The notes under the pieces: generated by a model | The model's input: only the letters and a program-made list of their open reading frames with translations | The model's database searches: none | Told to the model about the DNA's origin: nothing | Part shown: piece after piece, positions 4,638 to 10,615 of the stretch | How the letters are laid out: every line of letters starts with the position of its first letter | Position numbering within the stretch: the stretch's first letter is position 1 | Made by a program: the position numbers and the translations under genes | Origin: Syntrophales bacterium | GTDB taxonomy: Bacteria > Desulfobacterota > Syntrophia > Syntrophales > UBA4778 | Length of the DNA: 53,549 nucleotides | Direction: 5' to 3' | Assembly: GCA_028712885.1 (NCBI GenBank) | Contig: JAQTPK010000017.1 | Location: forward strand, 1-53,549

Positions 4638-4952
4638 ATGGCCAGGGCCTACGAGGCTTTCTACGATTGCCGGTGCATCCTCTTTGACCAGAAGCTCCCG
4701 GCGCCCGGGATGCTCAGAAATCTGAAAAAAGAGTTTTTGAGGAGAGAGCTCTGGGTGCCGATCGGCGAGATAAATCACAAGGAATGGACGCATCTCATAA
4801 ATCTGTACGGGAAGGAGCGGTTCGAAAAACTGAATATCGATATCCGCAGCACAAAGCTCTACCGCGCGGTCGGATGCACCGAATGCGACGGCCTGGGATA
4901 CAAGGGCCGGATGGGGATACACGAACTGATCCTGCGGACATGCATAAAATAA
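4638..4952 (+). pseudogene. Remnant of a GspE/PilB-type secretion ATPase (C-terminal fragment)
   Basis: A 104-residue open frame ends with LYRAVGCTECDGLGYKGRMG then IHELI, the C-terminal zinc-motif region of type II secretion / type IV pilus assembly ATPases (GspE/PilB). The preceding stretch LINLYGKERFEKLNI also fits that family. Walker A, Walker B and the Asp and His boxes are absent because nothing upstream encodes them, and the protein stops a few residues after the motif. The frame stays open some way upstream without an obvious ribosome site. A full ATPase has about 550 residues, so this is best read as a decayed 3' end. No other secretion gene is nearby. Confidence 0.6.
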
Positions 4953-5897: not shown

Positions 5898-6674
5898 TCA
5901 GTTTCCCCTGTCCGCTGCATATGATTTTTCATTTCCCCTCGTGAGGAAGTTCCTGACTTTCCGGTCTTCGGATTGGGCCAGCAATACCTTCGGGTGTCCA
6001 GCCGCCGTAATGGTCCCGGAATCCGCATCGAGGTACACCGAATTGTCTCCAATGGAAAAAATGCTCGCCAGTTCATGCGTGACAACGACAAAAGTAGAAC
6101 CGATGCTGTCGCGAATCCTGAGGATCAGGTTGTCAAGCATCCGTGCGTTGACCGGGTCCAATCCGGCCGAGGGTTCGTCGAAAAAAAGGATGTCGGGGTC
6201 AAGCGCCATTGCCCGGGCCAGGCCCGCTCTTCTTGCCATGCCCCCGCTGAGTTCGGCCGGATAGAAATTCTCGAAACCGGCGAGTCCGACCAGGGCCAGT
6301 TTCAGGGCGACAGTATCGCGGATTTCGCCGCGGCTCAGGTCTGTATGCTGTTCGAGGGGCAGAGAGACGTTTTCCGCCAGCGTCATGGAAGTCCACAATG
6401 CGCCGTTCTGGTAAAGCACGCCGAACCGCCTCATCAATCTCTCCCGTTCGTCCGGCCCGGCCCCCCAAAGGTCCATCGTCCCGTAGAGAATCCGCCCCCC
6501 GGCCGGCTTCTTCAAGCCGATCATCGCTTTGAGCAGAGTGCTCTTGCCGGATCCGCTTTCCCCCATGATGATGAATATCTCGCTCCTGCCGACCGTAAAG
6601 TTGATATTTTTCAGCAGGGCGAGGCCGCCGTATCCGATCGCCAGGTCCCGAACCGCTATTTCGGTCTCGTCCAT
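5898..6674 (-). CDS. mlaF: MlaF-type ABC transporter ATPase
   Basis: This 258-residue ATPase powers the Mla lipid transporter on the cytoplasmic side. Walker A is GESGSGKST (about residues 38-46), the ABC signature is LSGGMARRAGLARA, Walker B is DILFFDEPSAGLD, and the switch His sits in VVVTHELAS. The signature variant LSGGM(A/R)RR is typical of MlaF rather than of drug exporters. It is preceded by mlaE with a 12-base gap and followed by mlaD, consistent with translation from one message. All catalytic residues are present. Confidence 0.93.
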   Translation of the reverse strand: MDETEIAVRDLAIGYGGLALLKNINFTVGRSEIFIIMGESGSGKSTLLKAMIGLKKPAGGRILYGTMDLWGAGPDERERLMRRFGVLYQNGALWTSMTLAENVSLPLEQHTDLSRGEIRDTVALKLALVGLAGFENFYPAELSGGMARRAGLARAMALDPDILFFDEPSAGLDPVNARMLDNLILRIRDSIGSTFVVVTHELASIFSIGDNSVYLDADSGTITAAGHPKVLLAQSEDRKVRNFLTRGNEKSYAADRGN

Positions 6675-6686
6675 CCCTGCCTCCGC

Positions 6687-7844
6687 TCAGATGCCCATCA
6701 GGTCGCATAAATATGTGATGGCGGCCGTGGCAATAACCATCCAGACGATGGCGGTCACCACCGCCGAAGTGGCGGCGTCGCCGACGGCCGATGCGCTCCG
6801 GCCGCACTGCATCCCTCTCAGGCACCCCGTCAGGGATATGATGATGCCGAAGACAAAACTGTGGAACAACCCGATCCACAGATTAGTGAGGTCCAGCGTC
6901 GACCTTGTCTCGGCGATATAGGAGGCCGCGCTCAGATCCAGCATGCCGGCCCCGACAATCAATCCTCCCAGGATTCCCATGAAATCGGCGTACACGCACA
7001 GAAACGGCATCATCAGGGTAAGCGCGATTACGCGCGGCGCGACGAGAAACTCCACGGGCGAGATGCCGAATGTCCGGAGGGCGTCGATTTCTTCGTTCAC
7101 CTGCATGGCGCCGAGCTGCGCGGCATAGGCGGCTCCCGTGCGGCCCGCCATGATCACCCCGGTCATAACGGCTCCCATTACCCGGACCATGGCAATTCCC
7201 ACCAGATCGGCGACGTAGATCTGCGCGCCGAATGTCCTGAGCTGAATGGCCCCCATGAAAGCGAAGATCGATCCGACGAGCATGCCGATCACCGAGACGA
7301 TCGGGAGGGCCTGGACACCGGCCCCCTGGACGAAGGAATAAACGTCGGCAGGCCGGAAGGCGCCCCGTCCCCGGACCAGGGCGAAAAAACCCAGCGCCGC
7401 TTCCCCTATAAAAGCGACTGCTTCTTCGACGGCTCCGGAAAGCGAGATCGCCCCGCCGCCGACGCGGGAGAGGAAAGATTCCTGCCGGACGCCCGCCGGC
7501 TCCGCCTCCGCCCTTGCTCCGGGCCGTTCCGGAACCGCCGCGGCCATCCTCAGCAGCCTCCTTGCTCCGTCCGGCAGACCGTCGGCTTCGGCAACGACGC
7601 CCTTTATTTCCAGGCTGTGCCTTATCCGCAGAAAAAAAGTAAGCAGGCTGCTGTCCCATTCCGTAATCCCGGCTGTGTTGAAACTCACCTTCCTCAGCAG
7701 CGGCCTTGATTCGAGAATTCCGAGCGCCTCGCCGGCCCCGGGCAGGCCGGCGCTCCTTTTCCATCTTCCGGTCAGTTGTATGACGGCGGTTTCGTCGGTC
7801 GGCGCAGACACGGACATCTCACCTTTTTTGACAGCTTCATCCAC
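6687..7844 (-). CDS. mlaE: MlaE permease with fused N-terminal STAS (MlaB-like) domain
   Basis: This is the membrane permease of the Mla system. The C-terminal about 250 residues are MlaE: amphipathic start, then ALPIVSVIGMLVGSIFAFMG, the conserved cytoplasmic helix GRTGAAYAAQLGAM then QVNEEIDALRTFGI, and further membrane segments to the C-terminus. The N-terminal about 110 residues (TAVIQLTGRWKRSAG ... VSFNTAGITEWDSSLLTFF) look like a STAS domain, the fold of MlaB, so subunits B and E are fused. I chose GTG 7844, with a GAGGA site about 9 bases upstream. The frame stays open to 7976, but that would run into the divergent marR promoter. ATG 7817 is a second candidate, though its ribosome site would be too close. 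Confidence 0.88.
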   Translation of the reverse strand: MDEAVKKGEMSVSAPTDETAVIQLTGRWKRSAGLPGAGEALGILESRPLLRKVSFNTAGITEWDSSLLTFFLRIRHSLEIKGVVAEADGLPDGARRLLRMAAAVPERPGARAEAEPAGVRQESFLSRVGGGAISLSGAVEEAVAFIGEAALGFFALVRGRGAFRPADVYSFVQGAGVQALPIVSVIGMLVGSIFAFMGAIQLRTFGAQIYVADLVGIAMVRVMGAVMTGVIMAGRTGAAYAAQLGAMQVNEEIDALRTFGISPVEFLVAPRVIALTLMMPFLCVYADFMGILGGLIVGAGMLDLSAASYIAETRSTLDLTNLWIGLFHSFVFGIIISLTGCLRGMQCGRSASAVGDAATSAVVTAIVWMVIATAAITYLCDLMGI

Positions 7845-8001
7845 GAGTCTTTTTCCTCGCAGACTTCCTGTTTGTATTCGGGATTGGAGAAAGAGAGGGG
7901 AAGATTGAGTGCGGCCCTGTCTTGACTTTACAACGTATGGCCGAAAATTCCATGAGTATTTCGATGAGATAATCAAGCCGGCGAAGGAAAGAAAAATCTG
8001 C

Positions 8002-8030
8002 TTGACAATAGTGTTTAGCGCATATACACT
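8002..8030 (+). promoter_or_regulatory. Predicted sigma-70 promoter of marR
   Basis: TTGACA (8002-8007) is followed after exactly 17 bases by TACACT (8025-8030). Transcription would be expected to begin near 8037, which is the A of the marR ATG, so the message may have no leader. Confidence 0.6.
8010..8030. promoter_or_regulatory. Putative MarR operator, copy 1
   Basis: A 21-base imperfect palindrome with outer arms AGTGT and ACACT lies between the -35 box and the end of the -10 box of the marR promoter. A second copy lies at 8511-8531; in inverted orientation 17 of 21 positions agree. Binding here would block marR transcription. Confidence 0.6.
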
Positions 8031-8036
8031 TCGCCC

Positions 8037-8495
8037 ATGAAGAAATCCGCTTTATCTCCGTATTCCCTCGCCGAGAAATTTTCGAGAGTTTCCAAATTAT
8101 GGCGTCAGTTCAATTCCCGGCCGCGCAGATTCGGTACTGAAACAGAGCTGTCGGGTTCAGAAATTCATCTTATTGAGGCGGTGGGACAGAACGAAGACTT
8201 AAGCGTGACCGATCTTGCCGGGCGGCTGGGAATAACAAAAGGCGCTGTTTCGCAAACCCTCAAAAAACTTGAAATAAAAGACATTATCGTAAAAAAGGTC
8301 GATCCGGCGAACAGTTCCCGGACGATGGTCGGCCTGTCCACAAAAGGCAAGGTGGCCTACTACTCGCATCTGCAATGGCACGAGGAACTGGACGGCGGCT
8401 TCCGGGATTATTTCTTCAGTCTTCCCCAAGACAAGATTCGCTTTCTTGACGAGTTCCTTTCCAGCCTGGAGCAGTTTCTTAAACAGGGGGACTGA
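8037..8495 (+). CDS. MarR-family transcriptional regulator
   Basis: This 152-residue dimeric winged-helix regulator contains the core ALSVTDLAGRLGITKGAVSQ-type helix-turn-helix (DLAGRLGITKGAVSQTLKKL), followed by the wing SSRTMVGLSTKGKVAY. N- and C-terminal helices would form the dimer. No ribosome site precedes the ATG, which falls at the predicted transcription start. The gene is divergent from the mla operon and upstream of a methyltransferase. Matching 21-base boxes before and after it suggest that it represses both itself and the methyltransferase, and possibly mlaE. The ligand is unknown. Confidence 0.88.
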   Translation: MKKSALSPYSLAEKFSRVSKLWRQFNSRPRRFGTETELSGSEIHLIEAVGQNEDLSVTDLAGRLGITKGAVSQTLKKLEIKDIIVKKVDPANSSRTMVGLSTKGKVAYYSHLQWHEELDGGFRDYFFSLPQDKIRFLDEFLSSLEQFLKQGD

Positions 8496-8510
8496 ATTTT
8501 TTTTGCAGTA

Positions 8511-8531
8511 AGAGTATACGTTCTAAACACT
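8511..8531. promoter_or_regulatory. Putative MarR operator, copy 2
   Basis: This is an inverted near-copy (17 of 21 bases) of the box at 8010-8030. It lies between marR and the methyltransferase gene. TTGCAG at 8503-8508 and AACACT at 8526-8531 repeat the 17-base promoter spacing seen upstream of marR, so the box again overlaps a likely promoter. Confidence 0.55.
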
Positions 8532-8547
8532 TTCAGCGGAGGAAGCA

Positions 8548-9117
8548 ATGAAAACAGGATTCCTTGGAAGAGGCATGGACAGAATACCCGATATGGCTTT
8601 TCGGGTAATGAGTTGGATATTTGTCGTCAGGGACAGGTTCAGGACGCCCTGGGCGCTCCTTGACCGGTTCGGGATTGAAAAAGGGCAGACCGTGGTGGAC
8701 TATGGCTGCGGTCCGGGATCCTACCTCGGACGCGCATCCGAACTGGCCGGCCCCGGGGGAAAAGTGTTGGCGGTCGACATTCATGACCTGGCGATAGAGG
8801 CCGTCGGAAGGCGAATTATCAGGGAGCGGTTGAGCAACGTGACGGCCGTCAAGGCCGGCCCGGGCTCCTCCCCTATCCCGGACCAGACGGCGGACGTGAT
8901 TTATGCTCTTGATATGTTTCATATGGTCAGCGACGCTCCGGTATTCCTGAGGGAACTGAACCGGATCTGCAGAAATGCGGGATTGCTTTTCATCGACAAC
9001 GGCCACCAAAGCCGGGAAAAAGCCAGATCAAAAATAATATCCTCAGGAATGTGGAGGATCGTCGAAGAAAACAAACGCTACCTGAAGTGCACTCCCCTGG
9101 GGAAAAAGCTTCACTGA
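8548..9117 (+). CDS. Class I SAM-dependent methyltransferase
   Basis: This 189-residue protein has a GGAGGAAG ribosome site 3-4 bases before the ATG. Motif I is VVDYGCGPGSYLGRA (about residues 48-62), the acidic residue after strand 2 is in VLAVDIHD, and the DxxDxVYALDMFHMV region gives motif IV. It resembles the UbiE/Methyltransf_11 group. No substrate domain is recognisable. A putative MarR box in its promoter suggests that it is induced by the compound sensed by the upstream MarR protein. The C-terminus converges on the HerA-like gene with a 10-base gap. Confidence 0.83.
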   Translation: MKTGFLGRGMDRIPDMAFRVMSWIFVVRDRFRTPWALLDRFGIEKGQTVVDYGCGPGSYLGRASELAGPGGKVLAVDIHDLAIEAVGRRIIRERLSNVTAVKAGPGSSPIPDQTADVIYALDMFHMVSDAPVFLRELNRICRNAGLLFIDNGHQSREKARSKIISSGMWRIVEENKRYLKCTPLGKKLH

Positions 9118-9127
9118 AGTCCCGGTG

Positions 9128-10615
9128 TTACCTGCGGCTCGACCCGCCTGATATGCCTCCCAGCACTCCGCGCAGGATCTTCCGGCCGATCTGGCTGCCG
9201 ATGGTGCGCGCAGTCTGTTTTGCCATGGTCTCGACCATGCCCTGCCGTCTTTTCGTCCCCCACAGGAAATCCCCGAACCTCCCGCGCTCGGGGGGCCTGC
9301 CGGACTCGATCCTTTCCGTCCCGGAATCCGCCGTTTCCTTCTCCACGGCCCGCCGGCCGAGAATTTCGTATGCCGACTCGCGGTTGACCGGCGAATCGTA
9401 CTTGCCGGCTACCGGGCTGCGGGCCAGCACGACAGCGCGCTCTTCCGGCGTTATCGCCCCGATCCGGCAGCGCGGCGGGCAGATCAGCGTGCGCTCCACC
9501 GGCATCGGTATGCCCTTCTCCTGGAGCGTGGAGACGAGGGCTTCGCCGACCCCGAGCATTGATATGACCTCGGCGACGTCAAGCTTCGGATTTGCTGCAA
9601 AGGTTTCCGCGGCGGTCTTCACCGCCTTGCGGTCCCGCGGCGTATACGCCCGGAGCGCATGCTGGATGCGGTTCCCGAGCTGGCCCAAAATCTCGTTCGG
9701 CACGTCATCGGGGAACTGCGAGCAAAAATATACCCCGACGCCTTTGGAGCGGACGATCCGGACGACCTGCTCCACTTTCTGCCGCAACTTGGGAGGCGCG
9801 TCGTCAAACAGCAGGTGGGCTTCATCGAAGAAGAAAACCAGCTTCGGCTTTTCAAGGTCGCCCACCTCGGGAAGGTTCTCGAACATCTCTGAAAGAAGCC
9901 AGAGGAGAAAACTCGAGTACAATCGGGGCTTCAGGATCAGCTGGTCTGCGGCAAGAATGCTGATGACGCCGCGGCCGCTCAGGTCGGTCCGCAGCAGGTC
10001 ATTGAGCTCAAGGGCGGGCTCGCCGAAAAAGGCTTCCCCGCCTTCCCTCTCCAGCGACAACAGTGCCCTTTGGACCGCGGCTACGGATTGTGCGCTTACC
10101 AGGCCATAATCTTTCGAGATCTCCTTGCGGTTTTCCGCTACAAATCCGAGCAGGGCGCGCAGGTCGTCCAGGTCAAGCAACAGCAGGCCCTGATCGTCCG
10201 CCAGCCTGAAGGCAATCTCCAGCATTCCGGCCTGGGTCTCGTTTACTTCCAGGATTCGGCTCAGCAGGCCGGGGCCGATTTCGCTTATTGTCGTGCGGAC
10301 CCGGTGGCCGGACGATCCCAGCACGTCCCAGAACATTACCGGATTCGCCTCGTTCGCGTAGTCCTCCATGCCCAACCGGGCGACCCGCTCCCGGATCTTC
10401 TCGTTGCTTACGCCGGCCATCGCAAGGCCGGCGACGTCGCCCTTGACGTCGGCCATGAATACCGGAACGCCCATGCGCGAAAAGCCCTCTGCCAGAACCA
10501 GGAGAGAAACAGTCTTTCCGGTGCCGGTGGCCCCTGCGATCAAGCCGTGGCGGTTGCCGTACCTTGCGAGAAGTTGAACCGGCAGTTCTCCTTTTCCGAT
10601 AAGTATCCGGTTCAT
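9128..10615 (-). CDS. HerA/YjgR-like ATPase (DUF853 family)
   Basis: This 495-residue P-loop ATPase has Walker A GATGTGKT at about residues 27-34 (ANRHGLIAGATGTGKTVSLL-like context) and Walker B PKLVFFFDEAHLLFDDAPP. The order of conserved blocks (VFMADVKGDVAG, NPVMFWDV, LLLLDLDDLRALL, GVGVYFCSQFPDDVP) is that of the DUF853 / E. coli YjgR family, related to HerA-FtsK DNA translocases. Its role is not established in any organism I know of. The tail (last 70 residues) is basic and glycine-rich. It is a single gene with no NurA or defence partner nearby, so a housekeeping role is more likely than defence. Confidence 0.88.
   Translation of the reverse strand: MNRILIGKGELPVQLLARYGNRHGLIAGATGTGKTVSLLVLAEGFSRMGVPVFMADVKGDVAGLAMAGVSNEKIRERVARLGMEDYANEANPVMFWDVLGSSGHRVRTTISEIGPGLLSRILEVNETQAGMLEIAFRLADDQGLLLLDLDDLRALLGFVAENRKEISKDYGLVSAQSVAAVQRALLSLEREGGEAFFGEPALELNDLLRTDLSGRGVISILAADQLILKPRLYSSFLLWLLSEMFENLPEVGDLEKPKLVFFFDEAHLLFDDAPPKLRQKVEQVVRIVRSKGVGVYFCSQFPDDVPNEILGQLGNRIQHALRAYTPRDRKAVKTAAETFAANPKLDVAEVISMLGVGEALVSTLQEKGIPMPVERTLICPPRCRIGAITPEERAVVLARSPVAGKYDSPVNRESAYEILGRRAVEKETADSGTERIESGRPPERGRFGDFLWGTKRRQGMVETMAKQTARTIGSQIGRKILRGVLGGISGGSSRR

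Follow-up and report, generated by a model that had tools for sequence, protein, structure and literature searches.

Introduction

The two genes of the MepR-MepA system of Staphylococcus aureus lie in tandem. According to excerpts of PMC3617543, the MarR-family repressor of this system binds near-palindromic sites at its own promoter and at that of its target. FabT of Streptococcus and Enterococcus is described in part of PMC9083066 as binding palindromes, including at its own promoter, and TamR of Streptomyces coelicolor is presented in a portion of PMC5487221 as a MarR protein named after the trans-aconitate methyltransferase that it regulates. Here we analyze a locus with a MarR-family gene and a methyltransferase gene in a 53,549-nucleotide (nt) stretch of DNA from a Syntrophales bacterium (contig JAQTPK010000017.1 of assembly GCA_028712885.1), referred to below as the window. 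The marR gene (152 amino acids, aa) is followed on the same strand by a gene for a 189-aa class I S-adenosylmethionine (SAM)-dependent methyltransferase, and two 21-nt boxes lie upstream of marR (box 1) and between the two genes (box 2).

A first-pass annotation of the window had proposed that the boxes are MarR operators and that marR and the methyltransferase gene form a regulon. This proposal is strongly supported by the presence of the boxes across phyla, their exclusivity in the organism's own genome, a search with the motif only, and covariation between box bases and recognition-helix residues. The two boxes are very likely operators of the MarR protein encoded between them, through which it would repress both its own gene and the methyltransferase gene.

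Results

Boxes at marR in several phyla

The boxes read AGTGTTTAGCGCATATACACT (positions 8010-8030) and AGAGTATACGTTCTAAACACT (8511-8531) and, as reported in the first-pass annotation, are identical at 17 of 21 positions once one of them is inverted. The pair is the longest inverted repeat of positions 7000-9500 (22 nt, 82%), and each box alone is a near-palindrome. Related loci were taken from a profile-based scan of GTDB genomes, using the best 80 of 178 relatives, which come from several phyla. Once three copies had been removed, 83 non-redundant loci including the window were compared. Copies dropped ahead of the counts in this analysis were L069, L093 and L110 (of L002, L003 and L004) and, among the loci found later, L116, L119 and L120 (of L005, L115 and L114). 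The best match to the palindrome GTWTAG-N3-CTAWAC was scored in each search region of up to ~300 nt.

Upstream of marR, a box with at most one mismatch was present in 62 of the 83 loci and one with at most two mismatches in 73, and the corresponding counts downstream of the marR stop codon were 59 and 68. Randomised regions reached two mismatches or fewer in about 3%. Loci with boxes at both positions span Desulfobacterota, Bacillota, Synergistota, Spirochaetota and Zixiibacteriota, and in most loci of several phyla the boxes keep fixed distances from the marR -35 hexamer and start codon, or from the stop codon. A protein search recovered five more distant MarR relatives from the same order (alignment identity 26-32%), four of which have similar boxes at both places and one upstream only. 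For 20 distant MarR loci from this search (L007-L026), the whole locus was scored, and its best match had one mismatch or fewer in 1 case and two or fewer in 4.

The boxes are exclusive to this locus in the organism's own genome (2,929,447 bases). A genome scan, which the first-pass annotation had suggested as a check, returned only the two window boxes when GTWTAGNNNCTAWAC was allowed up to one mismatch, and a reversed control pattern matched 17 sites per strand. When 395 genomes of the phylum were searched with the palindrome only, two sites were obtained, in two genomes of one genus. Both were directly upstream of a MarR gene that is followed by an orthologous methyltransferase gene and then a flavodoxin-like gene, and at both loci a second box with one mismatch was found after the marR stop codon, ahead of the methyltransferase gene. 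Each of the window boxes carries one mismatch, and neither was matched in this exact search.

Covariation of the recognition helix with the boxes

The window protein matches the Pfam profiles MarR_2 (40.8 bits, cut-off 27) and MarR (32.8 bits, cut-off 24.6). Its AlphaFold model, built from a 37-row alignment (predicted local distance difference test score 89.7), has the MarR fold with a recognition helix (residues 68-80), a wing and long C-terminal helices, and the 50 solved chains listed for the fold match (Z 13.3-15.6) are nearly all named as MarR-family proteins. Among 100 loci with a recognisable box, Q at residue 73 is paired with A at half-site position 5 in 82 of 83 cases, and E with G in 12 of 17. 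Likewise, G69S accompanies T4A in the half-site and K68N accompanies G1T. Because these helix residues co-vary with box bases, the boxes can be tied to the neighbouring MarR. The peptide TKGAVS is conserved in 83 of 83 loci, which is partly built in because relatives were searched with it.

This tie comes from sequence comparison and other palindrome-binding factors exist, so that a different regulator, encoded elsewhere, might bind the boxes and control the gene pair. However, the boxes travel with the MarR gene across phyla, the genome holds no other site of the motif, and it is the adjacent MarR whose helix co-varies with them; we consider a separate regulator very improbable and retain MarR as the protein that very probably binds both boxes.

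E42 and H44 (80 loci each), H111 (83) and H115 (81) are also conserved among the 83 loci. These residues are a lead to a possible AdcR/ZitR-like metal site.

The marR promoter and a predicted leaderless mRNA

The first-pass annotation had placed promoters of the same geometry on both boxes, which holds well for the upstream one: TTGACA-N17-TACACT was the only plus-strand promoter-like site found in a promoter scan of positions 6500-10500. The downstream counterpart, TTGCAG-N17-AACACT, has the same geometry but is weaker than had been stated, since it agrees with TTGACA and with TATAAT at 3/6 positions each, and it was not picked up by the scan of this region. In related loci, a TTGACA-like -35 hexamer (at least 4/6) occupies the same offset from the upstream box in 67 of 80 (offset counts use boxes with up to three mismatches).

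In 63 of 80 loci, the distance from the box start to the first in-frame ATG is 22-25 nt, which puts this ATG 4-7 nt past the -10 position and does not leave much space for a Shine-Dalgarno sequence. Where a locus has two ATGs, as in L040, the nearer one was counted because the script took the first in-frame ATG. In the window, the marR ATG is 6 nt past TACACT and has no Shine-Dalgarno sequence, and no other plausible in-frame start was seen nearby on inspection of the sequence. With a transcription start ~7 nt past the -10 hexamer, the marR transcript would therefore begin at its AUG, and the mRNA is probably leaderless. Leaderless mRNAs are known, and an excerpt of PMC4448216 gives their share as 8% of mRNAs in Streptococcus agalactiae.

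The first-pass annotation had also named mlaE as a possible member of the regulon. The mlaE-mlaF-mlaD genes lie upstream of marR on the opposite strand, and this divergent layout, with the mlaE start (ATG at 7817-7815, minus strand) ~190 nt from box 1, might allow MarR to control them from box 1 as well. However, the motif scan of the genome revealed no third box at up to one mismatch, the promoter scan revealed no minus-strand promoter-like site between the mlaE start and box 1, and a search of the other 85 loci turned up no mlaE, many of those loci covering no more than 1.5-4 kb or stopping at a contig edge. On these grounds mlaE was rejected as a third target, and control of the mla genes by MarR appears very improbable.

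Genes downstream of marR

The window MarR falls in a clade of 16 (support 98/91), in which the methyltransferase gene is next to marR in 15 members and the contig of the 16th ends after marR. In our own classification of 111 loci, what follows marR includes a methyltransferase gene at 22, a MATE exporter gene at 16 and both kinds at 2; the other 71 were grouped as others, a class that includes contigs ending early. The cargo genes seen are those for methyltransferase, MATE exporter, flavodoxin-like, transglutaminase-like and hydrolase proteins. At L003, a methyltransferase 51% identical to that of the window is encoded upstream of marR instead.

Three further observations concern the cargo. 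In the two closest methyltransferase-type loci, L114 (2619-3023) and L115 (2-412, minus strand), the methyltransferase gene is followed by one that was judged flavodoxin-like by eye and is possibly a third member of the unit. Two Bacillota loci, L048 (5937-6551) and L059 (5997-6593), have both the MATE exporter and the methyltransferase downstream of marR, hinting at a shared detoxification role. At several Clostridium/Lacrimispora loci (L074, L085, L092 and L097), the second box is followed by a short open frame of about 80-100 aa.

Observations that weigh against the operator assignment

A number of results speak against the assignment of both boxes to MarR. One box is missing in some loci, as more than two mismatches were found upstream in 10 of 83 and downstream in 15 of 83. 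In 25 further loci of the phylum, drawn from the best protein profile matches with L114-L116 and L118-L120 left out of the count, a box with at most two mismatches was present upstream in 18 and downstream in 11, and several of these loci carry altered half-sites in both boxes. The helix-box changes sit in few clades and thus represent a handful of events. At the marR-promoter offset of the downstream box, a -35-like hexamer (at least 4/6) is present in 29 of 74 loci, as compared with the 67 of 80 upstream.

The two boxes of a locus resemble each other more than boxes of different loci when all loci are taken (16.06 vs 13.54 of 21; n = 87, kinship ignored), but inside the methyltransferase clade the values were 15.60 and 15.49 of 21, and 3741 of 10,000 permutations were as high. 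Because the excess is absent inside this clade, it reflects change at the level of subfamilies, and co-evolution of the two boxes locus by locus is not claimed. L118, which equals L073 in the tree (distance 0), was kept, and the box-likeness, tree and covariation counts may hold one extra copy.

Finally, the window holds inverted pairs with 17/21 identity within ~700 nt at about a dozen places (21 overlapping pairs), and 17/21 identity alone therefore proves little. When the comparison was limited to the two promoter regions, this identity was reached by 4 of 550 randomised region pairs (110 loci). On this basis, two inverted copies flanking one gene could be a coincidence, or could mark the ends of a small mobile cassette around marR as its terminal repeats. 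However, the inverted orientation carries little information because each box is itself near-palindromic, and the register relative to the marR -35 hexamer, start and stop codons described above contradicts both chance and mobility. The mobile cassette is not favoured because this register is conserved (judged without a search for target-site duplications or a transposase), and we consider either origin of the pair very unlikely. The first-pass annotation had regarded the inverted pair as strong internal evidence for a MarR operator; the match is unremarkable within the window, and the comparison across loci carries the case. Its reading of operators and a two-gene regulon is very probably right, but the internal evidence that it gave would not have carried that reading.

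The T tract and the role of box 2

The second box lies shortly past the marR stop codon, often by 15-18 nt, behind a T tract. Of 78 loci, 59 have a run of four or more T residues directly after the stop codon, at a near-fixed distance before the downstream box, where 9.4% would be expected. On average, the 32 nt that precede this run fold hardly better than shuffled sequences (mean z -0.46), indicating no consistent hairpin, and a scan detected a weak stem at 8472-8494 in the window. An intrinsic terminator was rejected as the explanation of the tract, despite the window stem: because no consistent hairpin precedes it across loci, the tract is not simply a terminator.

The weakness of the -35 and -10 hexamers at box 2, in the window (3/6 each) and in relatives, and the conserved T run without a consistent hairpin raise a further alternative, in which box 1 is the true autoregulatory operator and box 2 mainly acts on transcription coming from marR, as a roadblock or pause site, the methyltransferase gene being expressed by readthrough. 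Against this, the excess of -35-like hexamers is exactly at the marR-promoter offset, with 29 of 74 as compared with 14 at the runner-up among the offsets outside the box; within the box, 30 matches occur at offset +10 because the palindrome itself resembles the hexamer. In addition, L067 carries TTGACA-N17-TACCTT over its downstream box. Both observations argue for a promoter at the downstream box. We consider the roadblock a possible but distinctly less probable arrangement. If both boxes are operators, as we prefer, a weak promoter at box 2 may be what is blocked there, or polymerase coming through from the marR promoter may be hindered, and the two effects may also be combined. By eye, at least L067, L072, L088 and L095 have two tandem box-like palindromes, not one, before the next gene downstream of marR.

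Features of the locus

The coordinates are collected in Table 1. A HerA-like gene lies downstream of the methyltransferase gene on the opposite strand. Elsewhere in the window, a 104-aa open frame at 4638-4952 stands alone and is possibly a remnant; we take it to resemble the C-terminal part of a GspE/PilB-type ATPase.

Table 1. Features of the marR-methyltransferase locus in window coordinates
Feature	Position	Strand	Basis
marR-family repressor gene, 152 aa	8037-8495	+	Pfam MarR_2 2.6e-10; recognition helix predicted at residues 68-80
Class I SAM-dependent methyltransferase gene, 189 aa; predicted second regulated gene	8548-9117	+	Pfam Methyltransf_11 5.8e-14
Shine-Dalgarno-like GGAGG of the methyltransferase gene	8538-8542	+	Sequence
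Predicted operator box 1, AGTGTTTA-N5-TATACACT, within the marR core promoter	8010-8030	+	Sequence, related loci
Predicted operator box 2, inverted relative to box 1; AGTGTTTAGAACGTATACTCT on the minus strand	8511-8531	-	Sequence
-35 hexamer TTGACA of the marR promoter	8002-8007	+	Promoter scan; offset kept in related loci
-10 hexamer TACACT, final six bases of box 1	8025-8030	+	Promoter scan, related loci
T8 tract between the marR stop codon and box 2	8497-8504	+	Sequence, related loci
Weak -35-like TTGCAG of the putative methyltransferase promoter, 3/6	8503-8508	+	Sequence
Weak -10-like AACACT at the end of box 2, 3/6	8526-8531	+	Sequence

Discussion

In the mechanism that we propose, a MarR dimer would bind box 1, covering the spacer and the -10 hexamer of the marR promoter, and a dimer would bind box 2 between the marR stop codon and the methyltransferase gene. 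RNA polymerase would be blocked at both boxes, resulting in negative autoregulation and in repression, rather than activation, of the methyltransferase gene. A ligand may lower the affinity of MarR for DNA and so release both genes, and the methyltransferase might then methylate the inducing compound or a related one.

Beyond the window, the related loci suggest a standard cassette in a cross-phylum MarR subfamily, in which the marR promoter, an operator and the start codon would be fused (leaderless), a second operator would follow the stop codon and the cargo would be exchangeable, together with a simple code for operator recognition, by which the fifth half-site base would be set by helix residue 73, Q with A and E with G. 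Taken jointly, the cassette and the code are somewhat more probable than their negation. This two-operator cassette, with its predicted leaderless repressor and exchangeable cargo, is the more interesting part of the analysis as compared with the two-gene regulon. A literature search of one open-access library found no paper on the motif or on the two-operator cassette, which is not proof of absence.

The analysis proposes a precise operator and a two-gene regulon for an uncharacterised MarR lineage of several phyla. The natural helix-operator variants would be useful for testing DNA recognition, and the predicted leaderless start, being conserved, could be used to study why the mRNA of a repressor would lack a leader. 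To judge from the exchangeable cargo genes, the lineage may sense small toxic molecules, which could help to find ligands and the substrate of the methyltransferase.

Of the described systems, FabT is the closest solved structure in the profile comparison (6jbx, E 1.1e-17) as well as in the fold comparison (Z 15.6), and it shares histidines aligned with H44, H111 and H115 of the window protein. Membership in FabT was rejected, as the score was 50.8 bits against the NCBIfam FabT cut-off of 200. Unlike FabT, the window MarR has mla genes, the methyltransferase gene and a HerA-like gene as neighbours and no fatty-acid synthesis genes. By description, TamR resembles the present system, in which the predicted target of the MarR protein is also a methyltransferase, whereas the window differs in having the two genes in tandem.

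MepR matches the fold of the window MarR with Z 14.5 (5ffx), and relatives of the window MarR in Clostridia carry a MATE exporter as the presumed target. The two systems differ in that a GTTAG motif and binding at the mepR transcription start are described in the excerpts of PMC3617543, whereas the window has GTWTAG-N3-CTAWAC in the marR core promoter. In addition, the window marR is predicted to be leaderless and its predicted target is a methyltransferase, the MATE exporter occurring only in relatives. Putative operators of the MepR-MepA type at both regulator and target are present in the window, where the two boxes are the only ones in the genome and the downstream promoter appears weak. 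By analogy, MepR-MepA is the closest precedent for the layout of this locus.
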